Below are positions 15,854-30,663 of a stretch of DNA of 64,000 bases, piece after piece. This DNA comes from Streptomyces sp. NBC_01445. Lineage in GTDB: Bacteria > Actinomycetota > Actinomycetes > Streptomycetales > Streptomycetaceae. Every line of letters starts with the position of its first letter. Position 1 is the stretch's first letter. Made by a program: the position numbers and the translations under genes. The DNA is taken from contig NZ_CP109485.1 in NCBI RefSeq assembly GCF_035918235.1, forward strand, positions 186,001-250,000. Direction: 5' to 3'. Under the pieces are notes generated by a model that saw only the letters and a list, made by a program, of their open reading frames with translations, was not told the DNA's origin and did not search any database.

Positions 15854-16603
15854 CTAAGGCTTGCGCGATGCGCCGCGCATGGCGTGGTGGACGCCGTCTC
15901 CCTTGAGGCGACAATCACGCAGAATCTCCCAGCACTTCATGCGGGCGAAGACGTGCTCGACGCGAGCTCTCACCTGCTTGTGGGACGTGTTGTGTGCGAC
16001 CTTCCAGTCGGGAAGTTCCTCGCCCGTGCGGCGGCGGTGCGGCATCACCAGGCCGGTACCCGGATAGCCGCCGTCCGCGATCGTCGTGGTGGCACCAACC
16101 GCGTCCCTGGCGCCGGATTCCGCCCATGCCTTGCAGTCATTGCGGTTGCCCGGAAGAGGCCGGCCGACCACGACGACAAGTCGGCTGTCGGCGTCGATGA
16201 CGACTTGGTGGTTGGTGGAGTACCGATAGTTCTTGGACTGCTCCGCGACTGAGTGGTCACGGGTGGGGACCAGGGTACCGTCCACGATGAGGACGGCACC
16301 CTTGGCGAACCGCTCGCGCTGCCGCAGCGCGAGTTTCGGGCCGAGGTGGTCGATGACCCGGTCGGCGGAAGACTTCGACACCCCGAACAGCGGGGCCAGT
16401 TGTCGCAGCGTGAGGTTGGTGCGCCAGTAAGCGGCCACCAGCAGCAGGCGATCCTCCAGCGGCAGCTTCCATGGCCGCCCCCGGACCGGGGCGTCCGCTT
16501 CCCCTCGGCGTAGCTGCTTCACCAACTTCCCAAAGACCCGCGGGCTCAGCCCGCTGAAACGGGCTATCCAAGTCGGCTCCGACGCCGTGATCACACCAGC
16601 CAC
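15854..16603 (-). CDS. IS5-family transposase (DDE_Tnp_4 type)
   Basis: 249 residues. The helix-turn-helix part has LTLRQLAPLFGVSKSSADRV; the DDE residues appear as LIVDGTLVPTRDH, TIADGGYPGTGLVM and RARVEHVFARMKCWEIL. All three acidic residues are present, so it may be active. The C-terminus ends MRGASRKP, which departs from the usual MRGIA end; a late frameshift that trims ~10 residues is likely. I could not define terminal repeats with confidence. Confidence 0.88.
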   Translation of the reverse strand: MAGVITASEPTWIARFSGLSPRVFGKLVKQLRRGEADAPVRGRPWKLPLEDRLLLVAAYWRTNLTLRQLAPLFGVSKSSADRVIDHLGPKLALRQRERFAKGAVLIVDGTLVPTRDHSVAEQSKNYRYSTNHQVVIDADSRLVVVVGRPLPGNRNDCKAWAESGARDAVGATTTIADGGYPGTGLVMPHRRRTGEELPDWKVAHNTSHKQVRARVEHVFARMKCWEILRDCRLKGDGVHHAMRGASRKP

Positions 16604-17241: not shown

Positions 17242-18854
17242 TTAGCTTGATCTTTAACCTGTGCGGCGTGGTCGTGGGGTGGTTGACTTCGTCGTTCTCT
17301 TTTTCGCTGCCGCTGTTTTGCGGGGTGTATGCACGTCGTGGCGGGGTGTGGGTCGTGTGTTCTTTTGGCCCGGCGGCCGTCCGGGGCCAGGGCGCGAAGG
17401 TTTCGGTGCTTGGGCTGGACAGGCCGATTGCGGGCGGATGTGCCGGAAGTCGCGGCGGACTCGGGCGGGGGTGAGTCTGTCCGGCGGGGTGGGTTTCTCC
17501 CAGGGACGGCGCCGGTCGGCTGCGAGTGGGCGGGCGAGCCGCAGTTGGGTGTAGGCAGCGAGGATCAGCCAGGTCCATCGGTCGGCTGCCTCGGGGGTGC
17601 GGAGCTTTGGGGAGGTCCAGCCGAGGGTCTGTTTGAACAGGCGGAAGGTGTGCTCGATGTCGAAGCGCCGGAGATATGCCTGCCAGAGGCGGTCGGCGTC
17701 GTCCGGGGTCGCATCGGTGTCTGACCACCACAGCCAGACCGGCTTGGGTGTTGCTCCGCTGGGCAGATGGCCGATGTCCAGGCGGATCACCGTTCCTTCC
17801 ACGATCGGGAGGGTGCCGTCTGCGGCTGCCCAGGAAGAACGGTGGGTCAGCTTGGGGTGCAGCCGGTTCCAGGACCGGGCCCTGGCAGTGCCGTAGAGGC
17901 GGGTGTCGGTGATGGTTTCGGTGTCCGGGATGCTCCAGGTGTTGGGCTGTCCGAAGACGAACTCGCCGCCGTGCCGGGGCGGTCGGCCCTGAGTGTGTGG
18001 CAGCCGTGGTGGGACCGCTCTGCGCAGGACGCGGTCGGATCGCATCCTGGCCAGCACCTGGACCGGCAGGTCACCCAGGAGGAAGCCGAGGCGGGGCGCT
18101 TCGTATCCGGCGTCCGCGACGATGAGGATGTCGGGGTCGCCCGCCTGCCACTGCCCTGCTGCGATGAGTCGCTGCAGCAGATCGCGCAGTTGCCGGGCGG
18201 TGACGGTTGCGGTGTCGTCGCCAGGCTTCAGACGCAGCGCGTCCAGCGGCGCCGTCCATGAGCTACGGCCCGGCTCGAGCGCGCAGACGATCGAGTAGGG
18301 CCAGCCGGGGACCGGGATGTGCTGGTCCTTGCCCCGGCCATAGGTGTGACACAAAATCCGCTCGGGTGAGGTGTGGGCGTCGGGCCGCAGCCAGCAGGTG
18401 ACATCGATCGCCAGGACCAGCCGGCCGTCGGCAGACCGCGGCAGTGGCACCTCTGCCAGTGCCCGCCGCAGCCGGCCGTCATCGATGCGTCCACGGGCCA
18501 TGGCTGAGTAGAGCCCTCCATGGCCGCGGCGGTGCTCACCCACCAACGACAGTTCGGCCAGCGACCTCACCGGCCCGTCGCCGCACAGAACAGCATCAGC
18601 CAGCTCGAACAACACGTCCGAACGGGAGGTCAGGCAGGCATAGAACTCGCCCCGGAAGCATGACAGTTGTGCGAGCGACTCTCGCCGGGCGTCGTGATGC
18701 AGCAGACTCATCCTCACGGCCTTCGTGCTGAATGTGTGTGTTCCTTGGTCGGAGCACATGTTCAGACGAAGGCCGCCTTCATGTCCGGCAGATACCAAAC
18801 CGAGTGATCAAGTTCGACGGACCATTCGACGCCGCACGTTAAAGATCAAGTTAG
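17242..18854 (-). mobile_element. IS701-type insertion sequence
   Basis: A 1.6-kb element with 17-bp terminal inverted repeats at 17242-17258 and 18838-18854 (15 of 17 identical; shared core CTTGATCTTTAAC). It carries one transposase gene. No clear identical target duplication is seen next to these ends. Confidence 0.85.
17254..18711 (-). CDS. IS701-like transposase
   Basis: 485 residues from MSLLHHDARRESLAQLSCFR. Features are LVLAIDVTCWLRPDAHTSPE with the first catalytic Asp, DILIVADAGYEAPRLGFLL with the second, and FDIEHTFRLFKQTLGW with the Glu. The C-terminal ~50 residues are very basic and Pro-rich. All DDE residues are present and the frame is intact, so the element may still move. I chose the ATG at 18711 because it opens the conserved sequence; the frame is open to 18798. 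Confidence 0.9.
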   Translation of the reverse strand: MSLLHHDARRESLAQLSCFRGEFYACLTSRSDVLFELADAVLCGDGPVRSLAELSLVGEHRRGHGGLYSAMARGRIDDGRLRRALAEVPLPRSADGRLVLAIDVTCWLRPDAHTSPERILCHTYGRGKDQHIPVPGWPYSIVCALEPGRSSWTAPLDALRLKPGDDTATVTARQLRDLLQRLIAAGQWQAGDPDILIVADAGYEAPRLGFLLGDLPVQVLARMRSDRVLRRAVPPRLPHTQGRPPRHGGEFVFGQPNTWSIPDTETITDTRLYGTARARSWNRLHPKLTHRSSWAAADGTLPIVEGTVIRLDIGHLPSGATPKPVWLWWSDTDATPDDADRLWQAYLRRFDIEHTFRLFKQTLGWTSPKLRTPEAADRWTWLILAAYTQLRLARPLAADRRRPWEKPTPPDRLTPARVRRDFRHIRPQSACPAQAPKPSRPGPGRPPGQKNTRPTPRHDVHTPRKTAAAKKRTTKSTTPRPRRTG

Positions 18855-19457: not shown

Positions 19458-20414
19458 ATGAGCCCACGGCAGTCCCGTCCCACGCACCTCGCGAACCTCG
19501 ATCTCAACCTCCTGGTGACGCTGCGAGCGCTGCTGCGCGAGCGGAACGTCACCCGGGCCGCCCGGAACCTCGGCGTCACCCAGCCCGCCGTCAGCGCCGC
19601 GCTGTCCCGGCTGCGCCGACATTTCGGGGACGAGCTGCTCGCCCGGGTGCAGGGTGCCTACGTCCTGACGCCGCTCGCCGCGCAGCTGGCCGGGCAGGTC
19701 GAGACCGTGTGCGCGGCCGCCGAGAGGCTCTTCGCGACAGGCAGGGCGTTCGACCCCGACACCACCGAGCGGGAGTTCACGCTGCTGATGGCCGACTACC
19801 AGGCGACGGTCCTCGGCCCCGCGCTGTCACGGCTGTTCGACCGCGAGGCGCCGCATGCGGCGCTCCACGTCCAGCTCATCAGGGAGACCCTGGGCAGTGG
19901 CGCGGGCGACGCGATCCGGCTCGTCGACGCCATGGTCTCCCCGCCGCTGGGCCACTTCCGCACCCCAGGTGTCCACTCGGCTCCGCTCTTCCAGGACCGG
20001 TGGGTCTGTCTGGTGTCCGCCGACCACCCGCTGTGCGGGACCGAGTCGTTCGGCATCGAGGACCTGGCACGGCTGCCGTGGGTGGTGCCCTACCACCGGG
20101 ACGAGGGCTACCCGTCGGCCGCTCCGGCGACCCGGCAGCTGAGCACCCTGGGCATCCGGCCACGGATCGCCGTACGCGTGGAGAGCTACCGGGCCGTGCC
20201 CGACTTCATCTCCGGAACGCGGCGGGTGGCGCTCGTTCCGGAGCGGCTCGCCGCGCCGCTGAGGTCCGCGCACGGGCTGCGCACGCTCGCCTGCCCGGTA
20301 TCGCTCGATCCGCTGGAAGAGCATCTCTGGTGGGACGCGAGCCACGACGAGGACCCGGCGCACAGCTGGCTGCGTGACCTGGTGGCCCGGGCGGCGGCCC
20401 GCCTTGGACCATAA
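19458..20414 (+). CDS. LysR-family regulator (NodD/NahR-like)
   Basis: 318 residues. The N-terminal HTH reads LDLNLLVTLRALLRERNVTR and PAVSAALSRLRRHFGDELL; the effector-binding domain (about 95-318) has the NodD/NahR-type region FTLLMADYQATVLGPALSRL. Members of this branch usually activate aromatic or organic-acid catabolism. The gene points toward the MFS/dehydratase operon 490 bp downstream and probably controls it. I chose the ATG at 19458; no strong SD is seen. Confidence 0.92.
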   Translation: MSPRQSRPTHLANLDLNLLVTLRALLRERNVTRAARNLGVTQPAVSAALSRLRRHFGDELLARVQGAYVLTPLAAQLAGQVETVCAAAERLFATGRAFDPDTTEREFTLLMADYQATVLGPALSRLFDREAPHAALHVQLIRETLGSGAGDAIRLVDAMVSPPLGHFRTPGVHSAPLFQDRWVCLVSADHPLCGTESFGIEDLARLPWVVPYHRDEGYPSAAPATRQLSTLGIRPRIAVRVESYRAVPDFISGTRRVALVPERLAAPLRSAHGLRTLACPVSLDPLEEHLWWDASHDEDPAHSWLRDLVARAAARLGP

Positions 20415-20653
20415 ACGGAATTGATACCTCCCAGTCGAACGCTCTATTGACCTGGGCATTCCCTCCGGCGAGACGGTCCGCCTACGGTGCGGGGCATGCA
20501 GTGAGAGCCGCGGTCGCGGCACAACCCCCTTCCACAGGAGCCCTCGATGCCCCATGTCCTGACCATGGCGCAGGTCACATCTGATCGACGGCCTGCCCAT
20601 GCTCGGCGAGCATGTGGGGAGCTCCCTGATCGGCCCGTTCTTCCGGAGCGGCG
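20415..20653. other. Intergenic before the importer gene
   Basis: It contains TTGACC at about 20447 and probably the cluster promoter, but no convincing -10 at the right distance. No gene is recognised. Confidence 0.3.
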
Positions 20654-20860
20654 GGCTTCTTCCAGGCGACCCGGCTCGCCGGCGCCGCACCCCTCGGCAT
20701 GGCCTTCGCGGCCATGACCGGAACAGCCGCGCTCGGCGCGGTCGTCACCCGCGTCCCCACCGTGACCGGTACGGACCGGGACCCGCTGACCGACATCCGA
20801 ACCGGGGACCGGGGCAGCGTCGACGCCGGCCAGGGCATCGCCACGGCCCGCATCGACCCC
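20654..20860 (+). pseudogene. Aconitase X small-subunit (DUF126) relic
   Basis: GFFQATRLAGAAPLGMAFAA followed by TAALGAVVTRVPTVTGTDRD and IRTGDRGSVDA matches the C-terminal half of the intact small subunit at 26709-27164 (GFFQSTRLMGTAPLAMVFTN and AALGAIVTRVPTVTELDDDP). The N-terminal half is missing. This is a decayed duplicate just before the importer gene. Confidence 0.8.
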
Positions 20861-20901
20861 GCACCCCGCCCCGCCCTCCCCTCAATGATGAGGAGACGTC
20901 C

Positions 20902-22320
20902 ATGAGCGCCACACCACACCTCGTGGAACTGGCCCCGATCATCGAGCGTCAGCGAGCGAACCGCCGCTGGCTGTTGATGTACGCGGTCTGCTGTCTGATC
21001 ACCTTCCTCGACGGCTTCGACTTCCAGATCCTGTCGTTCGCCGCCACCTACCTCAAGAAGGACTTCGGGCTCACCGAGACGCAGCTCGGCACCCTGGGCA
21101 CGGTCGGCCTCTTCGGCACCATGATCGGTGCGCTGATCATGGGTTATCTGGCGGACCGGATGGGACGCCGTCCCACCATCATCGTGTCGGTCGCCGGATT
21201 CGGCGTCTTCATGCTCGGTTTCGCCCAGGCGGACACCTACGCACACCTGTTCGCCCTGCGCTTCATATCCGGGCTCTTCCTCGGCGGCGTACTCCCGCTG
21301 ACCTGGGCCCTGGCGGCCGAGTACGCGCCGAAGCGGTTCCGGGTGACCGCCGTCTCCATCATCATGTGCGGCTACACGCTCGGCGGCGCCGCCGGCGGTC
21401 CCGTCTCCAACTGGCTGATCCCCGACTACGGCTGGCGATCGGTGTTCGTCGTCGGCGGTGTCTGCTCCCTGCTCACCGTCCTCGCGGTGCTGCCGCTGCT
21501 GCCCGAGTCGGTGAAGTTCCTGGCGCTGAAGGCCCGCCCCGACAGCGACGAGCGCATCTCCCGCATCCTGAGCCGCTTCCAGCCGGGCCTGTCCATCGAG
21601 CCCGGGACCCGCTTCACCACCGAGGCCCAGGAGCAGGCGCACTCGGGCAAGCGGTTCACCCCCGCCCAGCTCTTCCGCGGCCACCTCGCCGCCATCACTC
21701 CCCTGCTGTGGGTCGTCTACCTCCTCTCCTCGGCGCTGATCTACTTCCTGGTCTTCTGGACCCCAATGATCAACGAGCGGATGGGCTTCAGCGTGAGCGC
21801 GGCCGCCACCATCGCCGCCCTGGCGAGCGTCGCGGGCGCCGTCGCGCAGCTGTTCATCAGCCGGTTCGTCGACCGCAAGGGCGCGGGCATCATCCTGTGG
21901 ATGCCGCTCGCAGCCGTCGTCTGCATGGTGACGCTGGGCAGCGGAGCTCTCGCCCCGGCCGTCTACGTCGCCTTCGTCATCGGCGCCAAGATGTTCGTCA
22001 ACGGCGGTCATGGCGGTATCACCAGCATCGCCGGCACCTTCTACCCGACGGCGATCCGTGCCAACGGTGCCGCCTGGGCGTCCTCGGTCGCCAAGATCGG
22101 TGCGATGGTCGGTCCCTGGCTCGGCGGTGTCATCCTCGACGCCGGTCTCGGGGCACAAGGCGCGTTCACCGTGTTCGCGGTCTGCCCGGCCGTGATGGTG
22201 GTGGTGCTGTTCGTGTTCGGCCGGGTCCAGCGTCGGCTGCCGGCCGAGGCCGAGGGAGCGATCTCCGTGGAGACACCCACGACCGGCGTGGCGCCGGTGA
22301 AGACGGCGGCCGCCTCCTGA
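20902..22320 (+). CDS. MFS transporter, aromatic-acid:H+ symporter type
   Basis: 472 residues, 12 transmembrane segments. The MFS signature between TM2 and TM3 is GYLADRMGRRPTIIVSVAGF. The N-terminal LITFLDGFDFQILSFAATYL carries the DGFD/DxxD motif of the AAHS (BenK/PcaK-like) group. AGGAGA lies 6 nt before the ATG. It is first in a run with the dehydratase, FAD enzyme and aconitase X genes, so it probably imports their organic-acid substrate. Orientation and spacing (65 bp to the next gene) suggest one transcript. Confidence 0.92.
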   Translation: MSATPHLVELAPIIERQRANRRWLLMYAVCCLITFLDGFDFQILSFAATYLKKDFGLTETQLGTLGTVGLFGTMIGALIMGYLADRMGRRPTIIVSVAGFGVFMLGFAQADTYAHLFALRFISGLFLGGVLPLTWALAAEYAPKRFRVTAVSIIMCGYTLGGAAGGPVSNWLIPDYGWRSVFVVGGVCSLLTVLAVLPLLPESVKFLALKARPDSDERISRILSRFQPGLSIEPGTRFTTEAQEQAHSGKRFTPAQLFRGHLAAITPLLWVVYLLSSALIYFLVFWTPMINERMGFSVSAAATIAALASVAGAVAQLFISRFVDRKGAGIILWMPLAAVVCMVTLGSGALAPAVYVAFVIGAKMFVNGGHGGITSIAGTFYPTAIRANGAAWASSVAKIGAMVGPWLGGVILDAGLGAQGAFTVFAVCPAVMVVVLFVFGRVQRRLPAEAEGAISVETPTTGVAPVKTAAAS

Positions 22321-22385
22321 TGACGGACGCCCGCCTCAGTCACTTCGCACAGAACCACCAGCAACAACCAGGAAAGAGTCAAGCG

Positions 22386-24080
22386 GTGTCCACAGAGCTG
22401 CGGAGCAACCATCCGATCGGGTCTTCCCGCTGGGCGACGACCCGCACGCAGTGGAAGGCGCTGGGTTACAACGACGAGGAGATCCGTCGGCCCAAGATCG
22501 CCATCGTCAACTCCTCCTCCGGGCTGGCGCCGTGCTTCGCCCACCTCGACAAGGTCGCGGAGGCCGTCCGCCAGTCGGTGTACGACGCCGGCGGGCTGGG
22601 CTTCGAGATCCGCACCGTCGCGCCGACGGACTTCAGCATGGCCGCCGGCCGGGGCGGCGGATATGTGCTCTCGGGCCGCGACCTGGTGTCCTACGACATC
22701 GAGTCGGTGGTCGAGGGCGCGAAGCTCGACGGAATGATCTGCCTGGCGTCGTGCGACAAGACGACGCCCGGCCAGCTGATGGCGGCCGCGCGGACCGACG
22801 TCCCCACCGTGATCGTCGCCTGCGGATACCAGAGCTGCGGTGTCCTCGACAACGGTCGCCGTGTCGACATCGAGGAGGTCTTCGTCGACGCCGGCAAGCT
22901 CGCCGCGGGCGCCATCAGCTTCGACGACCTCTGCCAGATGTCCGACCGCGCCATCACCGGCCCCGGCGTCTGCCAGGGGATGGGCACCGCCAACACCATG
23001 CACATCGTCGCCGAGGCGCTCGGGATGGCGCTGCCCGGCTCCACCCCGACCCAGGCCAACAGCGAGACGATGTGGGCGGCCGCGAAGGCCGCCGGCCCGG
23101 TCGTCATGGCGGCGATCGAGGCGGACCGGCGCCCCAGCACGGTGATGACCCCCGCCGCGTTCCGCAACGCGGTGACGGCGGTCATCGCGGTCAGCGGCTC
23201 GATCAACGCGGTCAAGCATCTGGAGGCGATCGCCGCGGAGTCGCCGTACGACATCGATGTCCACCGGCTCTTCGAGGAGATCGGGCGGGAGGTCGGGCCG
23301 ATCGCGGCCGTCCAGCCCAACGGGCCCACGACGATCGACGAGTTCGACGCCGCAGGCGGCGCTCGCGGCGTGCTCCGGCAGCTCGGCGACAGGATCGACG
23401 GCTCCGCCATGACGGTCACGGGCAAGCCGATGGCCGAGGCCGTCGCCGGCGCCCCCGTCGACGCGGAGGTGATCCGCGCCGAGCCGATGCGCGCCGAGTC
23501 CACCATCGTCCTGATGCGCGGCAACCTGTGCCCCGACTCCGGCATCGTGAAGCTGTCGGTGACGGAGAACCGGGCCCGCACCTTCCGCGGCACGGCGCGT
23601 GTCTTCGAGGCAGCGCCCGAGGCCACCGAGGCGATCGAGCGCGGCGAGGTGCTGCCGGGCGAGGTCCTCGTGCTGCGGGGGCTTGGCGTCACCGGAACAC
23701 CGGGGATGGGGATGGCCTCCAACGTGGTCTTCGCGCTGAACGGCGCCGGCCTGAGCGAGCAGGTGGCGTTCGTGACCGACGGGCAGCTCTCGGGGCTCGT
23801 CAACAAGGGCATCGTCGTCGGCGAGATCTCGCCCGAGGCAGGCGTGCCCGGCCCGCTGGGCGTCGTCCGCACCGGTGACGAGATCGCGATCGACGTCCCG
23901 AACCGGACCGTCGACCTGCTGATCGACGACGAAGAGCTGAACCGCCGGATCGAGGCGTACGCCGAAACACGCGCGCCGCAGACCTGGCCGGCGCGGCCCG
24001 GCTCCTGGCTCGGCGTGTACGCCGACGCCGTGGAGCCGCTCGACCGGGGCGCCACGCTGCGCCGGACCGCCGCCAACTGA
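22386..24080 (+). CDS. IlvD/Edd-family Fe-S dehydratase
   Basis: 564 residues. IlvD/Edd enzymes remove water from 2,3-dihydroxy acids or sugar acids using an Fe-S cluster. The three ligand cysteines are in place: Cys50 (GLAPCFAHL), Cys123 (LASCDKTTPGQLMAAAR) and Cys196 (GVCQGMGTANTM). The C-terminal swivel domain has MRGNLCPDSGIVKLSV and VTDGQLSGLVNKG. It is not housekeeping IlvD: the N-terminal motif is NSSSGLAPC rather than NSWNDITPC. The GTG at 22386 follows GGAAAGAG. It sits between importer and FAD oxidoreductase in one operon, so a catabolic dehydration step is likely. Confidence 0.93.
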   Translation: MSTELRSNHPIGSSRWATTRTQWKALGYNDEEIRRPKIAIVNSSSGLAPCFAHLDKVAEAVRQSVYDAGGLGFEIRTVAPTDFSMAAGRGGGYVLSGRDLVSYDIESVVEGAKLDGMICLASCDKTTPGQLMAAARTDVPTVIVACGYQSCGVLDNGRRVDIEEVFVDAGKLAAGAISFDDLCQMSDRAITGPGVCQGMGTANTMHIVAEALGMALPGSTPTQANSETMWAAAKAAGPVVMAAIEADRRPSTVMTPAAFRNAVTAVIAVSGSINAVKHLEAIAAESPYDIDVHRLFEEIGREVGPIAAVQPNGPTTIDEFDAAGGARGVLRQLGDRIDGSAMTVTGKPMAEAVAGAPVDAEVIRAEPMRAESTIVLMRGNLCPDSGIVKLSVTENRARTFRGTARVFEAAPEATEAIERGEVLPGEVLVLRGLGVTGTPGMGMASNVVFALNGAGLSEQVAFVTDGQLSGLVNKGIVVGEISPEAGVPGPLGVVRTGDEIAIDVPNRTVDLLIDDEELNRRIEAYAETRAPQTWPARPGSWLGVYADAVEPLDRGATLRRTAAN

Positions 24081-24110
24081 CCAACGCTCTCAAGAAAGAC
24101 GAACGACACC

Positions 24111-25400
24111 ATGCCCCACGCCCTTTCCGATCTCGTCGTCCACACGGTCACCAAGCCGGCCGACCATCCGGCCGAACGGCTCGACGCCGACATCCTCGTC
24201 GTCGGTGCCGGCATCGCCGGGCTCTCGGCGGCCATCCAGGCGCGCCGCCTCGGCCGCGACGTCGTCCTCGTCGACGCGCTCCCGGTCCTCGGCGGCCAGT
24301 GCGTCAACTCGATGATCGGGCTCTTCTGCGGGATCTACGGCAACGCGCCCGACTACCGCCAGCTGACCTACGGGATCTTCGGCGAGCTCTTCGAGGCGAT
24401 GGAGAAGACCAACGACATCTACTACCGCCGTACTCACACCCAGACGGTGGTCTACGACGAGGTGGCCCTCGGCCGCTGGTTCGAGAACATCGTCCAGGAG
24501 CTCGGCATCCGGGTGGTCCTCGGCGCCTCCGTCAGCGGCGTGGGGATCGAGGGCGGCGTCATCGAGCGGGTCGACTTCGCCACCCGCTTCGGCCCCGTGA
24601 GCGTCACCGCCCGCGGTGTCGTCGACACGACCGGCGACGCTGCGCTCGCCTGGGAGGCGGGGCTGCCCTGCCAGGTCCCCGACCGTACCGTCTGGGGCTC
24701 CCAGCAGATCCGCCTGGAGGGACTCGACGAGTCCGGCAATCCGGAGCCCGCCGAGCTGGTGGCCCGGGTCGACGAGAAGGCCGGCGAGTACGGCCTCGTC
24801 CGCCGCGACGGGCTCGCGTTCTTCTTCCCGGGCCGCAACACCGCGGTGATGAACATGACCCACGTCGAGGCTCCCCTGACCGCCGTCGAGGCCACCGACG
24901 CGCAGCTGCGGGGCCGCGCCCAGGCGGACCGGGTCGTGAAGTTCCTCCGGCAGGAGTTCCCGAAGGCGTTCAAGAACGCCAAGGTCCAGGCCTACGGATT
25001 CCCGGGGCGGCGGCAGGCCCGCTGGCTCGCCGCCTCCCACCAGCTGACCCTCGACGAGGTACGGCAGGAGACGAAGTTCGACGACGCCATCGCCCGGACG
25101 GCCTGGCCGGTCGAGCTGCACGACCGGGTCGAGGGCTACGTATGGGAGACCTTCGGCCCCGACCACGTCCACTACGTCCCGCTGCGCAGCATGCTCTCGC
25201 CGCAGGCGCACAACCTCGTGGCCGCGGGCCGCTGTGTCGACGGGGACGCCGCCGCCCTCTCCAGCGTCCGGGTGATGGGCCCTTGCTCGGCGATGGGCCT
25301 CGCCGCCGCGCACGCCCTCGACCTGACCCTGGGCGAGGACGTCCACCAAGTCGACCTCGGGGCGCTGCGCGACCGCGTCCGTGAGAACGTCGAGGACTGA
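24111..25400 (+). CDS. FAD-dependent oxidoreductase
   Basis: 429 residues. The dinucleotide-binding motif DILVVGAGIAGLSAAIQARR lies at about 25-45, followed by an acidic VLVDALPVLGGQC. The GGQC and GLFCGIYG segments are typical of the FAD_oxidored (PF12831) family. The C-terminal FAD contact is AGRCVDGDAAALSSVRVMGP. Expected to oxidise a hydroxy or saturated intermediate of the pathway. It starts 30 bp after the dehydratase and ends 10 bp before aconitase X. Substrate unknown. Confidence 0.9.
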   Translation: MPHALSDLVVHTVTKPADHPAERLDADILVVGAGIAGLSAAIQARRLGRDVVLVDALPVLGGQCVNSMIGLFCGIYGNAPDYRQLTYGIFGELFEAMEKTNDIYYRRTHTQTVVYDEVALGRWFENIVQELGIRVVLGASVSGVGIEGGVIERVDFATRFGPVSVTARGVVDTTGDAALAWEAGLPCQVPDRTVWGSQQIRLEGLDESGNPEPAELVARVDEKAGEYGLVRRDGLAFFFPGRNTAVMNMTHVEAPLTAVEATDAQLRGRAQADRVVKFLRQEFPKAFKNAKVQAYGFPGRRQARWLAASHQLTLDEVRQETKFDDAIARTAWPVELHDRVEGYVWETFGPDHVHYVPLRSMLSPQAHNLVAAGRCVDGDAAALSSVRVMGPCSAMGLAAAHALDLTLGEDVHQVDLGALRDRVRENVED

Positions 25401-25410
25401 GGAGGAGCCG

Positions 25411-26712
25411 ATGGTCGCTCTGACCGACGAAGAGAAGTCCATGCGCGACGGCCGTGACGGCGACGCCGTCGCGGCGGCGATGGACCTGCTCATCAGGTAC
25501 GCCGACGCCCTGGGCGCCGAGCACCTGTGCGAGACACGCAATGTGGCGGGGACCAACACCCAGCCCTCGCCCGCCAAGACGAAGCTGTTCGAGGAGGGCG
25601 GCTGGTCGAAGGCGTTCGCGGTGATCAGCCTCGACTGCGACGACGACATCACGGTGCCGCAGATGAAGGTGCCGACCTGCCAGCTCCAGCACGGCTTCGG
25701 CAACGACGCGCTGGGGATCATGCCGTACTCCGAGCGCAACATCGAGCTGCAGGCCGACGCCGAGTCGTTCTACAGCTCCAAGGGCGTCAACGTCCTGGCC
25801 ACGTGCACTCCGTACCAGGTGGGCAACCTGCCGACCTACGGCGAGCACGTCGCCTGGATGGAGTCCTCGGCGGTGGTGTACGCCAACTCGGTCCTCGGCG
25901 CGCGCACCAACTGCGAAGGGGGCGCCTCGACCGGGTCGGCGAGCATCACCGGCCGGATCCCCTGCTGGGGCAACCACCTGGTGGAGAACCGGTACGGCAC
26001 CCATCTGATCGAGTCCGGGCTGCGGATGACCGGCTTCCAGGACTGGGGCATGTTCGGCTACTTCGTTGGCGACGCGGTCATGGAGGCGCGGCCGGTCATG
26101 GTCGGCGACCTCGGCCAGCCCGACCTGGCGGACCTGAAGCACTTCGGTGCGGCCGCCGCCTCCTCGGGCGGCGTCGAGATGTACCACATCCCTGGACGCA
26201 CCCCCGACGCGCCGACCCTGGAGGCCGCCTTCGGCGGCGCCGCCCCGCCCGAGCCGCTGCACTACGGCGAGGCGGAGCGCCGCGCGATGTACGACTCGCT
26301 CAACTCCATCGGGAACAGCGAGGACGTCGACTTCGTGCTGATCGGCTGCCCGCACGCCTCGCTCGAGCAGATCGGCCGGGTCGCGCGGGCGCTCGAGGGC
26401 CGCACCCTGTCGGCCGGGACCGAACTGTGGGTCATGACGCCGCGCGCGCTGCGTTCCGTCGCGGACCGCAACGGGTGGACGGCCACCATCGAGGGCGCCG
26501 GGGGACGGGTCCTGACCGACTCCTGCCCGGCCATGTCGCGGGTGGCGCCGGCGGGCACCAAGGTGTTCGCCACGGACTCGGCCAAGCAGGCCCACTACCT
26601 GCCGGCGATCCTCGGCATCGAGGCCTGGTTCGGCACCACCGAGGAGTGCGTCGACGCCGCCGTGACCGGCCGCTGGCGCGGCTCGCTGGCCCCCGCGGCG
26701 GTGGTCCGATGA
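25411..26712 (+). CDS. Aconitase X, large (catalytic) subunit
   Basis: 433 residues of the aconitase X (DUF521) catalytic family. The three Fe-S ligand cysteines are present: Cys168 (RTNCEGGASTGSASI), Cys313 (LIGCPHASLEQIG) and Cys372 (LTDSCPAMSRV). Characterised relatives are cis-3-hydroxy-L-proline dehydratase in bacteria and phosphomevalonate dehydratase in archaea. GGAGGAG lies just before the ATG. The stop overlaps the small-subunit start (ATGA), so both are co-translated. It probably acts after or before the IlvD-type dehydratase in the same pathway. Confidence 0.94.
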   Translation: MVALTDEEKSMRDGRDGDAVAAAMDLLIRYADALGAEHLCETRNVAGTNTQPSPAKTKLFEEGGWSKAFAVISLDCDDDITVPQMKVPTCQLQHGFGNDALGIMPYSERNIELQADAESFYSSKGVNVLATCTPYQVGNLPTYGEHVAWMESSAVVYANSVLGARTNCEGGASTGSASITGRIPCWGNHLVENRYGTHLIESGLRMTGFQDWGMFGYFVGDAVMEARPVMVGDLGQPDLADLKHFGAAAASSGGVEMYHIPGRTPDAPTLEAAFGGAAPPEPLHYGEAERRAMYDSLNSIGNSEDVDFVLIGCPHASLEQIGRVARALEGRTLSAGTELWVMTPRALRSVADRNGWTATIEGAGGRVLTDSCPAMSRVAPAGTKVFATDSAKQAHYLPAILGIEAWFGTTEECVDAAVTGRWRGSLAPAAVVR

Positions 26713-27164
26713 CCAGCGTCGCAGAACCCCGGCGGCTTGTGCTCCGCGGCCGCGGCATCGTGCCGGGGCGCGTCGAGGGCGAGGCCCTGGTCTCCCACGA
26801 GACCATCTCCGGCTGGGGCGGGATCGATCCGGCCACTGGCACCATCGTCGAGCGCAGGCACGAGCTCTACGGCGTCTGCTTCACCGGCAAGGTGCTGGTC
26901 TTCCCGGGGGCGAAGGGCTCCTCAGGCTGGTCCGGCTTCTTCCAGTCGACCCGCCTCATGGGCACCGCACCGCTGGCGATGGTCTTCACCAACCTGACCA
27001 CCAAGGCCGCCCTGGGCGCGATCGTGACCCGCGTCCCCACGGTGACCGAGCTCGACGACGACCCGGTCGCCAGGATCGCGACCGGCGACCGCGTCGAGGT
27101 CGACGCCGACAACGGGCTGGTGGTGGTGCACGGCCCGTGGCCGCGGGCAGATCATCCGCGGTGA
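26709..27164 (+). CDS. Aconitase X, small (swivel) subunit
   Basis: 151 residues, the DUF126 swivel domain. Motifs are GEALVSHETISGWGGIDPAT, GKVLVFPGAKGSSGWSGFFQ and ALGAIVTRVPTVTELDD. The SGW and PGAKGSSGW loops contribute to the active site at the subunit interface. The four-base ATGA overlap with the large subunit fixes the start. A relic of the same domain lies at 20654-20860. It is the last gene before a strong terminator. Confidence 0.93.
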   Translation: MTSVAEPRRLVLRGRGIVPGRVEGEALVSHETISGWGGIDPATGTIVERRHELYGVCFTGKVLVFPGAKGSSGWSGFFQSTRLMGTAPLAMVFTNLTTKAALGAIVTRVPTVTELDDDPVARIATGDRVEVDADNGLVVVHGPWPRADHPR

Positions 27165-27186
27165 CGAGTCCGCGCCCCGCCCGCGG

Positions 27187-27227
27187 CTCGGGGGCCGTCA
27201 CCGACTTCACCGGTGACGGCCCCCGAG
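27187..27227 (+). terminator. Strong hairpin after the aconitase X genes
   Basis: A perfect 17-bp stem (CTCGGGGGCCGTCACCG with its complement) with a 7-nt loop, 22 bp after the small-subunit stop codon. It should end the importer-to-aconitase operon and separate it from the IclR gene. Confidence 0.85.
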
Positions 27228-27388
27228 GCGCGGGTGACCGGTCGGACACCCTCGGCCCGCCCCGCCCCGGCGACCTGGGCGGGGCCGTACGGTAGCCCTC
27301 ATATCGCCCCGCGCCCGCCCGTACACGATCGGGCGCGCCTTGCTCCCGGCCCTCTCCCGCCAGGAGCCCGAGCATCCCGGAGCCGCCG

Positions 27389-28201
27389 GTGCCTGGTAAA
27401 AGCGCAGCGACGGGTGGGCGCGACGCCCGTTCCCTCAGCGTCCGCACACTCGACGTGCTGGGCGCTTTCGGCGCCGCCCGCCCGCGGCTCACCCTCTCCG
27501 AGGTGTCCCGGGCGAGCGGCCTCTCCCTCACGACCACCCACCGCATCGTCACCGACCTCATCGAGTGGGGCGCGCTGGAAGAGGCCGACGGCGGCTACCA
27601 GATCGGACTCCGGCTCTGGGAGGCGGCGTGCGCGGCGCCCCGCGGGCTCGCCCTGCGGGAGACCGCGCTGCCCGCGATGGAGGACCTCTACGAGGCGACC
27701 CACGAGAACGTGCAGCTGGCCGTGCGCGAGGGGCTCGAGGTCGTCTACGTGGAGCGCATCACCGGCCGTGGCGCGATCCGGGTCCTCACCAAGGTCGGCG
27801 GGCGCTTCGCCCTGCCGGCCACCGGCGTCGGACTCGTCCTGCTGGCACACGCTCCTCGGGTGGTCCAGGAGCGGGTGCTGGCCGAGCCGTTGCGGCGCTG
27901 GACGCCGTACACCGTCACCGACCCCGCGGTGCTCCGCAAGATGCTCGCCGAAGTGCGTGGCGCCGGGTCGGCCCTCAGCGACCGTCAGGTGACCGAGGAC
28001 GCGTTGTCGGTCGCCTGCCCCGTGCGTGGCGCGGGCGGCGAGGTGGTGGCGGCGCTCTCCGTCGTGGTCCGCTCCGACGGCCCCCTCACCCTGACGGCGC
28101 TGACCCCCGCGGTACAGGCGGCGAGCCGCAGCATCTCCCGCGCCCTGGGCTGGGAACCGACCCGGCCGACCCGTGGCCGGCGTCTGCTGGACGCGGGCTG
28201 A
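27389..28201 (+). CDS. IclR-family regulator
   Basis: 270 residues. The winged helix (about 15-75) reads SVRTLDVLGAFGAARPRLTL and SGLSLTTTHRIVTDLIEWGA; the GAF-like effector domain (about 90-260) has VREGLEVVYVERITGRGAIR and CPVRGAGGEVVAALSVVV. IclR proteins commonly sense the first acid of a catabolic route. It lies between the two enzyme groups and is probably the regulator of the Rieske operon that follows. GTG start with GGAG 6 nt upstream. Confidence 0.93.
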   Translation: MPGKSAATGGRDARSLSVRTLDVLGAFGAARPRLTLSEVSRASGLSLTTTHRIVTDLIEWGALEEADGGYQIGLRLWEAACAAPRGLALRETALPAMEDLYEATHENVQLAVREGLEVVYVERITGRGAIRVLTKVGGRFALPATGVGLVLLAHAPRVVQERVLAEPLRRWTPYTVTDPAVLRKMLAEVRGAGSALSDRQVTEDALSVACPVRGAGGEVVAALSVVVRSDGPLTLTALTPAVQAASRSISRALGWEPTRPTRGRRLLDAG

Positions 28202-28253
28202 GGTCCGTGGGCGTGGGCTGAGAGCCCGTCAGGCGCGAGCTGAAATTCCTTTC

Positions 28254-28270
28254 CTTCCGTACATCGGAAG
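28254..28270. promoter_or_regulatory. Candidate IclR operator
   Basis: CTTCCG and CGGAAG flank a 5-bp centre (TACAT), 106 bp upstream of the Rieske oxygenase start. Size and symmetry fit an IclR site. There is no direct evidence of binding. Confidence 0.4.
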
Positions 28271-28376
28271 TGCCCTGGGCCGCAGAGGGCCGCGTCGGTC
28301 AACGTGAGGCAACCCGGTCGTCGCACCGGACCCCGGACGGGGTTCGGCCGGGCGAGAGACACACAAGGAGACACCG

Positions 28377-29444
28377 ATGCCCAGTTGGCCTGTGAACCAG
28401 TGGTACGTCGCCGCCTACAGTGAAGAGATCGGCGACGGCCTGCTCGGACGCACGATCTGCGGAGAGCCGCTCGTCTTCTACCGGACCGGCGAGGGCGAGG
28501 TCGTCGCGCTGGCCGACCGGTGCGTGCACCGCCGGTACCCGCTGTCGCTCAGCCACCTCAAGGACGACCAGATCGTCTGCGGCTACCACGGCTTCACCTA
28601 CGACAAGACCGGCGCCTGCGTCGCCGCACCGGCCCAGAAGCGGATCCCGCGCACGGCCCGCGTCCCCGCCTGGACGGTCCGCGAGCAGGACTCGCTGGTG
28701 TGGGTCTGGATCGGTGACCAGGAGCTGGCCGACGAGGCGCTGATCCCGCGGGCGCCGTGGCTGGACTCGCCCAACTACACGGTCGTCCGCGGCATGGAGC
28801 CGCTCAAGGCGCGCTACAGCCTGCTGGTCGACAACCTGATGGACCTTTCCCACGAGACCTACCTCCACGGCGGCTACATCGGCACGCCGGAGGTCGCCGA
28901 GACGCCGATCACGACCGAGGTCGACGAGGACGCCAACGTCGTCTACGTGAGCCGCCACATGGACGACGCCGAGTGCCCGCCGTTCTACTCCAAGTCCACG
29001 GGCATCGATGGCCGGATCACCCGCTGGCAGGACGTCGAGTACCACGCGCCGTGCCTCTACCTGCTGCACAGCCGGATCGCCCCGGCCGGCGTCCTGCCGC
29101 CGCAGGAGGGCCCGGACGACAAGGCCTTCCACGTCGAGGTGACCTACGGGATCACCCCGTCGACCGAGCACGAGACCCTGGACTTCTGGATGGTCTCGCG
29201 TGACTTCGCGCTCGACGACGAGGAGGTCACCGAGTTCCTCGCGACCAACAACCACACGGTGGTCATGCAGGACGTCGTTGCGCTCGACCTGCTCGAAAAG
29301 GTCGTCGAGGGCGAGAAGGAGAACTACCAGGAGCTGTCGATCAACATCGACACCGGCGCCCTGGCCGCCCGCCGGATCCTCACCAAGCTGGTCGCCCAGG
29401 GCGAGGAGAGGACGGCCGCGGCGAAGGCGGTGACCGCGCCATGA
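28377..29444 (+). CDS. Rieske oxygenase, VanA-like
   Basis: 355 residues. The N-terminal Rieske [2Fe-2S] domain has C49-x-H51 (RCVHRRYPLS) and C68-x2-H71 (CGYHGFTYD). The catalytic domain has the mononuclear iron site D156-x2-H159-x4-H164 (LMDLSHETYLHGG). Length and MPSWPVNQWYVAAY at the start match vanillate O-demethylase-type oxygenases, which remove O- or N-methyl groups or hydroxylate. AAGGAGA precedes the ATG. The stop overlaps the next start (ATGA); the electron donor is the VanB-type reductase two genes on. Confidence 0.93.
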   Translation: MPSWPVNQWYVAAYSEEIGDGLLGRTICGEPLVFYRTGEGEVVALADRCVHRRYPLSLSHLKDDQIVCGYHGFTYDKTGACVAAPAQKRIPRTARVPAWTVREQDSLVWVWIGDQELADEALIPRAPWLDSPNYTVVRGMEPLKARYSLLVDNLMDLSHETYLHGGYIGTPEVAETPITTEVDEDANVVYVSRHMDDAECPPFYSKSTGIDGRITRWQDVEYHAPCLYLLHSRIAPAGVLPPQEGPDDKAFHVEVTYGITPSTEHETLDFWMVSRDFALDDEEVTEFLATNNHTVVMQDVVALDLLEKVVEGEKENYQELSINIDTGALAARRILTKLVAQGEERTAAAKAVTAP

Positions 29445-29707
29445 GCAGCCCCAACCAGGCCGGTCCCGCCGCCCCCGTGCGCGCGGACCTGCCGGCGCCG
29501 ACCAAGATGCTCAAGGGGCGGACCGTCTACCGGGTGGTGTGGAAGCTCAACACCGACGTGCTCGTCGGCTACTGCTGGTGCGGCACCGCCCACGAGGACA
29601 CCGACCCCATCGCCCTGTGGGAGTGGCTCCTGGCGCACCCGGACACGCACGGCGGCCGGACCGACTCCGCCGTACCCGACCCCGAGCCGGAGCTGGTGGA
29701 CGCGTGA
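29441..29707 (+). CDS. Small CxC protein of unknown function
   Basis: 88 residues, overlapping the oxygenase stop by ATGA and the reductase start by GTGA, so it is translated in step with both. The middle reads VYRVVWKLNTDVLVGYCWCG, then HEDTDPIALWEWLLAHP. It has a Cys-Trp-Cys pair and one nearby His, too few for a normal Rieske or ferredoxin site. N- and C-termini are disordered. It may assemble with, or protect, the oxygenase. No known family is recognised. Confidence 0.8.
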   Translation: MSSPNQAGPAAPVRADLPAPTKMLKGRTVYRVVWKLNTDVLVGYCWCGTAHEDTDPIALWEWLLAHPDTHGGRTDSAVPDPEPELVDA

Positions 29708-30663
29708 ACACTGAGATCGAGCTGGAGCTGGTCGTCGCGGCCGCCACGGAGCCCGCCGCGGACGTCCGGCTACTCGAACTGCGCAGCCCCGACGGGGCCG
29801 AGCTGCCTGCCTGGTGTGCCGGGGCCCACATCGACCTGCTGCTCGACGACGGGCTGGTGCGGCAGTACTCGCTGTGCGGCGATCCGGACGACCGCAGCAG
29901 CTGGCAGGTCGCCGTGCTGCGCGAGCCGGAAAGCCGCGGCGGTTCGGCGCACGTCCACGACAAGCTCGGCGTGGGCGATCCGATCAAGGCACGCGGTCCG
30001 CGCAACAACTTCGAGCTGGAGCCGGCGGCGGCATACGTCTTCGTGGCGGGCGGCATCGGCATCACGCCGATCCTCCCGATGCTCGCCTCGGCCGACGCAG
30101 CCGGTGCCGACTGGCGGCTCTACTACGGTGGCCGCACCCGGGGCTCGATGGCCTTCGTGGACGACCTTGTGGCGCGCCACGGCGACCGCGTCGTCGTCCG
30201 CCCGCAGGACGAGACCGGACTCCTCGACCTGGCCGGGATCGTCGCAGGCCGTCCGGATGGCGCGCCGATCTACTGCTGCGGGCCGGCGCCGCTCCTCGAT
30301 GCCCTGGAGTGCGTGTGCACGCCCCTGCCGTCCGGCACGCTGCGCACCGAACGGTTCACGGCGCTCGAGGCCGACCCGGACGCCGTCTTTGAGGGTTTCG
30401 AGGTCGAGCTGACCGACTCCGGACAGGTTCTACAGGTGCCTGCCGACAAAACGATCCTCGACGTGATGGAGGAGGCCGGCATCGAGGTCCTCTCCTCCTG
30501 CCGGGAAGGCACCTGCGGCACCTGCGAGACCGGCGTCCTGTCGGGCACGATCGACCACCGCGACGTCCTGCTGACGCCCGACGAGCGAGCGGCCAACGAT
30601 GTGATGTTCGTCTGCGTCTCCCGGGCCGCCCCCGGCTGCTCGAGGCTGGTCCTCGAACGCTGA
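29704..30663 (+). CDS. VanB-type oxygenase reductase
   Basis: 319 residues of the phthalate-dioxygenase-reductase/VanB family. An FMN-binding barrel (RQYSLCGDPDD at about 55-65) is followed by the NAD domain (FVAGGIGITPILPML at about 110-125, CCGPAPLLDALE). The C-terminal plant-type [2Fe-2S] domain has Cys266-x4-Cys271-x2-Cys274-x29-Cys304. It passes electrons from NADH through FMN to the Rieske oxygenase. The GTG start overlaps the 88-aa gene's stop. It is the last gene of the operon. Confidence 0.94.
   Translation: MNTEIELELVVAAATEPAADVRLLELRSPDGAELPAWCAGAHIDLLLDDGLVRQYSLCGDPDDRSSWQVAVLREPESRGGSAHVHDKLGVGDPIKARGPRNNFELEPAAAYVFVAGGIGITPILPMLASADAAGADWRLYYGGRTRGSMAFVDDLVARHGDRVVVRPQDETGLLDLAGIVAGRPDGAPIYCCGPAPLLDALECVCTPLPSGTLRTERFTALEADPDAVFEGFEVELTDSGQVLQVPADKTILDVMEEAGIEVLSSCREGTCGTCETGVLSGTIDHRDVLLTPDERAANDVMFVCVSRAAPGCSRLVLER

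Follow-up and report, generated by a model that had tools for sequence, protein, structure and literature searches.

Two modules in a Streptomyces catabolic locus

Do the genes of an unfamiliar catabolic cluster form a single pathway, and on what kind of substrate would such a pathway act? The question is raised by a stretch of 64,000 nucleotides from Streptomyces sp. NBC_01445 (assembly GCF_035918235.1, contig NZ_CP109485.1, positions 186,001 to 250,000; hereafter the window), which occupies 186–250 kb of a 10.43-Mb contig in an 11.47-Mb genome and carries the cluster on its + strand. A sequence-only reading had named the genes and did not recognise their combination from any described pathway. 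Pfam and NCBIfam confirm every gene so named (LysR, major facilitator superfamily (MFS) transporter, IlvD/EDD, FAD_oxidored, both subunits of aconitase X (AcnX), IclR, Rieske and reductase), and no matching pathway was found in the open-access literature searched. The locus consists of two modules. Module A comprises LysR, an AAHS-like MFS transporter, IlvD, a PF12831 flavoprotein and the large and small AcnX subunits (AcnX-L and AcnX-S, with clusters AcnL and AcnS), while module B comprises IclR, a Rieske oxygenase, an 88-amino-acid protein and a VanB-like reductase. From comparison of the sequences, module A would be an uncharacterised, widely conserved catabolic module for a hydroxy-carboxylate, joined here to a separate VanAB-type O-demethylase (module B), with oxygenases serving as interchangeable front-end additions; our confidence in this combined reading is evenly balanced. 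Overall, module A is a real, conserved and undescribed catabolic unit; its VanAB companion recurs but can be dispensed with, and a proline derivative is unlikely as the substrate.

The locus looks like an accessory catabolic locus and is perhaps mobile, because its flavoprotein and AcnX-L are rare and transposase genes lie upstream of the cluster (15854–16594 and 17254–18798). At a threshold of E 1e-100, and with the window genome counted, the flavoprotein is present in 2 of 150 genomes of the genus and AcnX-L in 8 of 394 genomes of the class; at E 1e-90, the flavoprotein is present in 2 of 396 genomes of the phylum. The same cluster occurs in Streptomyces sp. CB01635 (L051), where an insertion divides it into aligned parts of 8,839 bp (99.3% identity) and 2,462 bp (98.8%). 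In that strain an IS605 OrfB/TnpB-like gene (L051, 14131–15384) lies between the IclR and Rieske genes, and the rest of the cluster is ~99% identical.

Conservation of module A

Relatives were collected by scanning GTDB contigs with a three-sequence flavoprotein alignment, and the best 80 of 113 confirmed loci (L007–L086) were analyzed. Genes were called with a codon model, in close match to the annotation of L003, and were then clustered and mapped, with cluster names based on window genes or on one representative apiece. As the sample was drawn via the flavoprotein it is no census, and contig ends cut some of the loci, such that absences there are uncertain.

The flavoprotein (24111–25400, PF12831) was clustered in 79 of the 80 loci, and the 80th, from Treponema (L084), was seen by tblastn. 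AcnL was present in 68 loci, AcnS in 67 and IlvD in 51, and AcnS directly follows AcnL in 66 of the 68. A core of flavoprotein, AcnL and AcnS was recovered from 65 loci, of which 46 also carry IlvD. These cores are distributed over what we take to be Actinomycetota (44), Pseudomonadota (15), Acidobacteriota (4) and Bacillota (2), and the Treponema locus, where the flavoprotein was recognised by tblastn, adds a fifth phylum. Module A is under purifying selection in comparisons with L007–L009, with dN/dS values of 0.10–0.14 for AcnX-L, 0.14–0.20 for IlvD and 0.18–0.30 for the flavoprotein. Uptake genes across the loci include NMT1-type binding proteins (26 of 80), AAHS-like MFS transporters (25 of 80), TRAP and TctC. 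In the Treponema locus the core stands alongside TRAP transporter genes (DctP, DctQ and DctM), which suggests that the core itself needs no oxygen.

Aldehyde dehydrogenase genes lie at or near the AcnX core in L010 (5463–6938), L034 (8369–9841) and L035 (13021–14475), and neither of the two that were tested reached an NCBIfam equivalog cut-off. A different two-subunit AcnX is encoded on a plasmid of Sporomusa termitida (L088, 792–8939), together with LysR, another FAD-dependent oxidoreductase, an MFS transporter and electron-transfer flavoprotein/acyl-CoA dehydrogenase genes.

Active sites of the two dehydratases

AcnX-L (25411–26712; PF04412, 355.6 bits) and the swivel subunit AcnX-S (26709–27164; PF01989) carry both family domains and the catalytic Ser, Glu, Lys and Tyr. 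Residues were followed in 26 large-subunit and 24 small-subunit rows, picked below 82% identity from 68 and 67, respectively. Cys132, Cys313, Cys372, Glu151, Ser152, Lys392 and Tyr396 occur in all 26 rows of the former, and Trp36, Ser71-Ser72-Gly73 and Lys99 in all 24 of the latter, which is the pattern predicted for a working [4Fe-4S] hydro-lyase. The three Cys ligands of the cluster, as in mevalonate-5-phosphate dehydratase (AcnX IIb), are thus present in 26 of 26 rows.

The sequence-only reading had named a methylated, hydroxylated acid or a proline derivative as candidate substrate, noting that AcnX acts on cis-3-hydroxyproline in characterised bacteria. According to PMC8184944 and PMC5144071, AcnX enzymes of types I and IIa dehydrate cis-3-hydroxy-L-proline, and the window enzyme resembles these in family, Ser base, Glu-Ser, Lys, Tyr and the ring-packing Trp, kept in 24 of 24 rows. 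Its separate subunits are as in type IIa, unlike type I; type IIa was compared by description, and the plasmid two-subunit AcnX of L127 and L128 by tblastn. The differences lie in the third Cys, which here is in GCPH, in the missing second Cys of the CxC, and in the binding of the substrate nitrogen, which is contacted by Thr72 and Asp203 in the structural passages of PMC8184944. Counterparts of both residues are absent: AcnL columns 44–55 hold no Asp in any of 26 rows, with gap placement around Asp203 ambiguous, and AcnS has Gly73 in 24 of 24. AcnX-L scores 215.3 bits against the 700-bit NCBIfam cut-off of the cis-3-hydroxyproline dehydratase model, a value far below it; the model describes a fused type I chain, on which a separate subunit scores low regardless. 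No hydroxyproline genes were seen among the Pfam-checked window genes (14.8–33.7 kb), proline racemase and pyrroline-2-carboxylate reductase were not among the neighbours checked, and the loci carry AAHS-like, NMT1, TRAP and TctC uptake genes instead. Hydroxyproline or proline-betaine catabolism, with AcnX as a cis-3-hydroxyproline dehydratase, is consequently very improbable for this two-subunit, three-Cys enzyme, and this part of the earlier suggestion is not supported.

An AcnX that acts as a mevalonate-5-phosphate dehydratase, as in archaea, is barely credible. The window enzyme shares the two-subunit form and the three-Cys pattern with archaeal AcnX IIb, and its best solved match is archaeal (7cnr). 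The phosphate-binding stretch of archaeal TkAcnX is given as Gly48-Asn53 in the relevant passage of PMC8184944, and the 26 rows have no conserved Asn at the counterpart of Asn53 (after Gly47); the counterpart of Asn79, also a phosphate-binding residue, falls in a stretch outside the structural-match alignment. Further, Trp36 and an SSGW loop stand where IIb has Leu and STVG, and the gene string is bacterial and catabolic. What the window AcnX does fit, as judged from its residues, is the description of subclasses IIc–IIf, which are two-subunit bacterial enzymes without a landmark residue of either known activity and of unknown function according to section 14 of PMC8184944.

The IlvD/EDD-type Fe-S dehydratase (22386–24080, with an alternative upstream start possible at 22317; PF00920/PF24877) is a paralogue. 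It has the family, the base-loop Ser and the Fe-S Cys motifs of housekeeping IlvD, the latter kept in 50, 50 and 46 of 51 rows in a pattern search. The base loop itself, TDGQLSGLVNKG, is different: TDG[QH]xSGL is found in 51 of 51 cluster members and the canonical TDGRFSGGT in none, while the canonical loop is present in an IlvD of the same genome (L132) and in 6ovt. The window protein reaches 427 bits with TIGR00110, below the 618.15-bit cut-off of this dihydroxy-acid dehydratase (DHAD) equivalog, and the genome holds two further IlvD-like matches. The active sites of both dehydratases, AcnX and IlvD, have diverged. An attempt to read the reaction of the flavoprotein from its fold was given up, as the AlphaFold model (pLDDT 87.9) has only generic nearest folds (geranylgeranyl-reductase-like, EtfABCX, FasV and sarcosine oxidase).

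Module B and its occurrence without module A

Module B begins with an IclR regulator (27389–28201; PF09339/PF01614), followed by a VanA-like Rieske oxygenase (28377–29444; PF00355/PF19112, the latter VanA_C) whose best solved relative is the dicamba O-demethylase DdmC. After the gene for the 88-aa protein (29441–29707) comes a VanB-like reductase with a C-terminal [2Fe-2S] ferredoxin (Fer2) domain (29704–30663; PF00111), for which NCBIfam returned sub-cut-off matches only, to other oxygenase reductases. All 6 members of the cluster, one of them the L051 copy with its 99% identity, keep the Rieske metal motifs CxH..CxxH and DxxHxxxxH. With both Rieske motifs, the VanA_C domain and the C-terminal [2Fe-2S] of the reductase, the earlier expectation that the pair demethylates gains support, and by these features the pair is of the O-demethylase kind.

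The 88-aa protein, with the motif CxC...H...WEWLLAHP, has no match in Pfam or NCBIfam. In all 16 distinct places at which VanB accompanies a Rieske of at least 66% identity, its gene lies between the two (L124, L125 and 14 others, with a single count for the window); it is missing between the pair in L126 (Rieske 56%) and L069 (35%). At least 37 such proteins were recovered by a word-based search, which misses distant ones. Position and motif suggest that the protein is possibly a third, metal-binding component of module B.

At E 1e-90, the Rieske oxygenase was found in 9 of 396 Actinomycetota genomes (66–73% identical, the query excepted), twice in the window genome. Seven of the 8 other genomes lack the core flavoprotein at the same threshold, and one has it on a different contig; module B is autonomous and occurs without module A. 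Around the Rieske genes that are not linked to A, a set of short-chain dehydrogenase/reductase (SDR), PF04909 amidohydrolase, CoA ligase and MaoC genes is present in L107 and in the second copy of the window genome (L113). An NMT1-type ABC transporter is present in L111 by Pfam, with L112 and L114 similar-looking, and the others have neither set. In L114 the Rieske gene is present, and VanB and the small gene were not found. The SDR, PF04909 amidohydrolase, acyl-CoA ligase and MaoC set (L113, 3701–7529; L014, 16807–20616) stands beside a Rieske/VanB pair in both loci, as an uncharacterised companion pathway.

On a Streptomyces plasmid (L125), a 67.5% identical Rieske gene with IclR and VanB adjoins a convergent pobA/pca gene set. 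According to PMC6904314, S. scabies overexpresses three genes with ferulic or p-coumaric acid: SCAB_15301 for the alpha subunit of a vanillate monooxygenase, SCAB_15321 for an Fe-S oxidoreductase and SCAB_15331 for an IclR. Correctly oriented, the SCAB_15301 primers fit the window Rieske gene with 1 and 3 mismatches and L112 and L115 with none; the primers of SCAB_15321 and SCAB_15331 gave no fit as a pair. Because of the pca linkage in L125 and of the S. scabies locus and primer fit, module B is of the Streptomyces vanillate-monooxygenase kind, with which it shares IclR, Rieske, small open reading frame (ORF) and VanB. It differs from the Streptomyces VanAB locus in that it adjoins an AcnX module; we infer that the window module may demethylate vanillate.

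These observations bring forward an explanation in which A and B are independent pathways, adjacent by chance, with B converting vanillate to protocatechuate for a beta-ketoadipate pathway encoded elsewhere and A degrading an unrelated acid. In addition to the pca set of L125, the S. scabies locus and the Rieske genomes without the flavoprotein, it draws on a PcaH homologue (78%) at C1:2.71 Mb of the same genome and on the relatives L008 and L009, which have A without an adjacent B. We regard this explanation as somewhat unlikely, on account of the recurrent pairing, the related regulators and the alternative oxygenases described below.

Linkage of the two modules

The co-occurrence check proposed with the sequence-only reading was run. 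Of the 51 actinobacterial loci, which span 975,090 bases, 5 (L014, L015, L026, L029 and L051) have Rieske (at least 69% identical) and VanB (at least 58%) next to A; the outcome that would have refuted that reading, gene groups that never occur together elsewhere, is thus contradicted. Both clusters number 6 among the 80 loci. Four arrangements are represented. In L026 and L029, B lies upstream behind a reversed IclR, and in L051 it lies downstream as in the window; the other two arrangements place it downstream and convergent, or simply upstream. The number of pairings expected by chance is 0.005 for an assumed 5-Mb genome or 0.12 for one copy per 8 Mb, and the probability of at least 4 is 8e-6 in the generous case, figures that serve as a guide only since the loci are interrelated and L051 is nearly the window itself.

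The A-linked Rieske proteins form no clade. In a tree where L069 is labelled A-linked and L069 and L126 are long branches, A-linkage requires 5 parsimony changes, at least 2 of them forced by well supported branches; shuffled labels give 5.8 changes, with 152 of 500 shuffles as low, such that the label is unclustered. The L014 Rieske groups with the pca-linked Rieske of L125 (support 100/99). This scatter fits more than one recruitment, and the recurrence of the pairing in four arrangements, far above chance and through more than one recruitment, argues against chance adjacency of two independent pathways. In L014, both the Rieske pair and the SDR/amidohydrolase/CoA ligase/MaoC set adjoin A, with the set 75–87% identical to that of L113.

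The regulators also connect the two modules. Fourteen IclRs that head A operons are 45–52% identical to the window B IclR, closer than 19 of 21 other IclR hits from the window genome. In an IclR tree, 8 of the 12 other rows stay separate from the regulators of A and B, with deep forks open and some own-genome rows long-branched. The relatedness of the A and B regulators again speaks against the two-pathway explanation. The two nearer hits of this genome are both 59% identical to the window IclR: an intact gene next to the second Rieske/VanB pair, and a broken one on the second contig (G000:C2:213178-213651).

Alternative oxygenases beside module A

Other oxygenases occupy comparable positions beside A. 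A TauD/TfdA-family dioxygenase (PF02668) is present in 9 of 80 loci, in Burkholderia, Pandoraea, Paraburkholderia and Rhodobacterales, and touches a core gene in 9 of 9. PF04909 proteins are present in 12 of 80 loci, and the L047 representative matches AibH1H2 and SfbO-type amidohydrolase-related oxygenases (best E 2e-81). A small Rieske ferredoxin (10 of 80 loci) occurs in 10 of the 12 PF04909 loci, and AibH/SfbO-type oxygenases are accompanied by a small Rieske ferredoxin in the systems treated in the pertinent part of PMC10811679, where SfbO is a dealkylating enzyme. The window itself holds no AibH1H2/SfbO homologue; in the relatives, these dinuclear oxygenases stand beside the same core, in 10 of the 19 cores without IlvD in the fetched stretch compared with 1 of the 46 with it. 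That other oxygenases are elsewhere embedded within the A gene string is a further point against two unrelated neighbours. The VanA and TfdA families also include dealkylating enzymes. Since all three recruited oxygenase families do so, dealkylation would be the likeliest shared step.

Several observations weigh against a core with front-end oxygenases as outlined at the start. Most directly, 41 of the 65 cores have no Rieske, TauD or PF04909 cluster in the fetched stretch, and front-end oxygenation is therefore not general. Of the 65 cores, 19 have no IlvD, and across the cores IlvD and the PF04909 oxygenase are anti-associated (both in 1 core, IlvD only in 45, oxygenase only in 10, neither in 9; Fisher P 5e-6, which may be inflated by related Pseudonocardiales), and therefore IlvD may not be a fixed step. 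The IclR upstream of the A-like operon of L027 is only 33% identical to that of the window, and B carries its own regulator and also adjoins pca genes (L125). The sixth Rieske among the 80 loci, that of L069, lends no support, being 35% identical and located past the LysR gene. L008 and L009 align with the window at ~92.5% from the transporter to AcnS, where the alignment ends, with no B at this place; the transporter and LysR of L008 are below full length in the gene calls. L007 lacks the segment 27495–29340, which takes in IclR and the greater part of the Rieske gene, and has a VanB match that stops early, while its 88-aa gene, with the Rieske partner gone, has a dN/dS of 0.70 over 88 codons.

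As A persists in near Streptomyces relatives that have no complete B next to it, B is an add-on and no fixed part of A. A single inseparable pathway is not supported, given L008 and L009, the decayed B of L007 and the 7 of 8 Rieske genomes without the flavoprotein at E 1e-90.

Proposed function

As a conserved core with interchangeable oxygenases, module A would convert a hydroxy-carboxylate to a 2-oxo acid. Both AcnX and IlvD remove a beta-hydroxyl after abstraction of an alpha-proton; IlvD requires an alpha-hydroxyl and yields a 2-oxo acid, and AcnX has no such need. The dehydration chemistry of AcnX is also laid out in part of PMC8184944. In the window, AcnX could use its [4Fe-4S] cluster as Lewis acid and Ser as base to take water from, or add it to, the beta carbon of a carboxylate that has no protonated ring nitrogen, the flavoprotein could oxidise a C-OH or C-C bond, and IlvD could dehydrate a 2,3-dihydroxy acid to the 2-oxo acid. 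A guessed order would lead from the hydroxy acid through AcnX and the flavoprotein to a dihydroxy acid, and through IlvD to the 2-oxo acid. The oxygenase would be the front end, dealkylating or hydroxylating a precursor and opening A to alkylated or unhydroxylated compounds, and a methoxylated acid is a good candidate precursor.

An aromatic setting was weighed as well, in which methoxylated aromatics would be demethylated by the oxygenase and cleaved by enzymes encoded elsewhere. A would then serve as the lower pathway for the ring-fission acids, with the flavoprotein, AcnX and IlvD processing an unsaturated or hydroxylated polycarboxylate. The transporter (20902–22320) is AAHS-like and no certified member of that family, with TIGR00895 its best family by far at 355 bits against a cut-off of 418.55, and the best model of the window IclR is the PcaR/PcaU/PobR subfamily (134 bits against a cut-off of 284.75). 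In the relatives, two intradiol dioxygenase (PF00775) genes lie 7–9 kb upstream of a Terriglobia core (L068, 1349–2601), L038 has a VOC gene (glyoxalase/dioxygenase superfamily) and one for a PcaJ-like CoA transferase beside A, and the neighbours of a 44% identical flavoprotein in Variovorax (L004) include a 3-HPP-type hydroxylase, a fumarylacetoacetate hydrolase and a VOC protein. Conversely, the window cluster contains no ring-cleavage gene, and the Treponema core with its TRAP genes has no aromatic gene seen in the 12-kb locus. On this balance the ring-fission route is improbable.

Other substrates were considered and dropped. A sulfonate, as might be suggested by TauD, an SsuA-like binding protein and SfbO, was set aside because 41 of 65 cores are without such an oxygenase and VanAB points to methoxy acids. 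Uronates and sugar acids were set aside because the models for arabinonate, xylonate and phosphogluconate dehydratases all give IlvD a lower score than the DHAD model does; the presence of module A in genera that are presumably non-saccharolytic was also counted against them. Carnitine-type betaines were dropped because we take the uptake genes to be unsuitable.

A broader proposal builds on the hydroxy-carboxylate module and is held only tentatively, somewhat short of even confidence. It would see an undescribed pathway in at least five bacterial phyla, in which an AcnX of new function, the flavoprotein and a re-purposed IlvD serve a common acid of plants or soil that is O-alkylated or can be hydroxylated, and to which aerobes independently added at least three unrelated oxygenases that unmask the same intermediate, with B containing a new small, perhaps metal-binding, subunit. 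Should the pathway serve an abundant methylated acid, a gap in soil carbon turnover would be filled, and the loci would exemplify the modular extension of one core route by interchangeable dealkylases in bacteria. Here, an AcnX of the IIc–IIf description belongs to a short string of genes that includes transporters and regulators, so that ordinary genetics can be used to test for its substrate.

Cluster boundaries and an AcnX-S relic

The LysR regulator of module A (19458–20414; + strand, PF03466/PF00126) belongs to a cluster present in 26 of 80 loci and lies just outside the interval of 20654–30663 that had first been drawn around the locus. The genes within that interval are real; the 88-aa ORF had been overlooked, and the starting point at 20654 falls in a relic of AcnX-S, with the transporter beginning only at about 20902. 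The relic (20654–20905, + strand) is the C-terminal part of a degraded second copy rather than an intact gene, is without a match in a Pfam search, and is 52% identical to AcnX-S over 61 aa, with similarity traceable upstream to about 20654. A segment holding most of it (20564–20889) is missing in L008 and L009. Lying between LysR and the transporter, the relic would be the trace of an earlier rearrangement.

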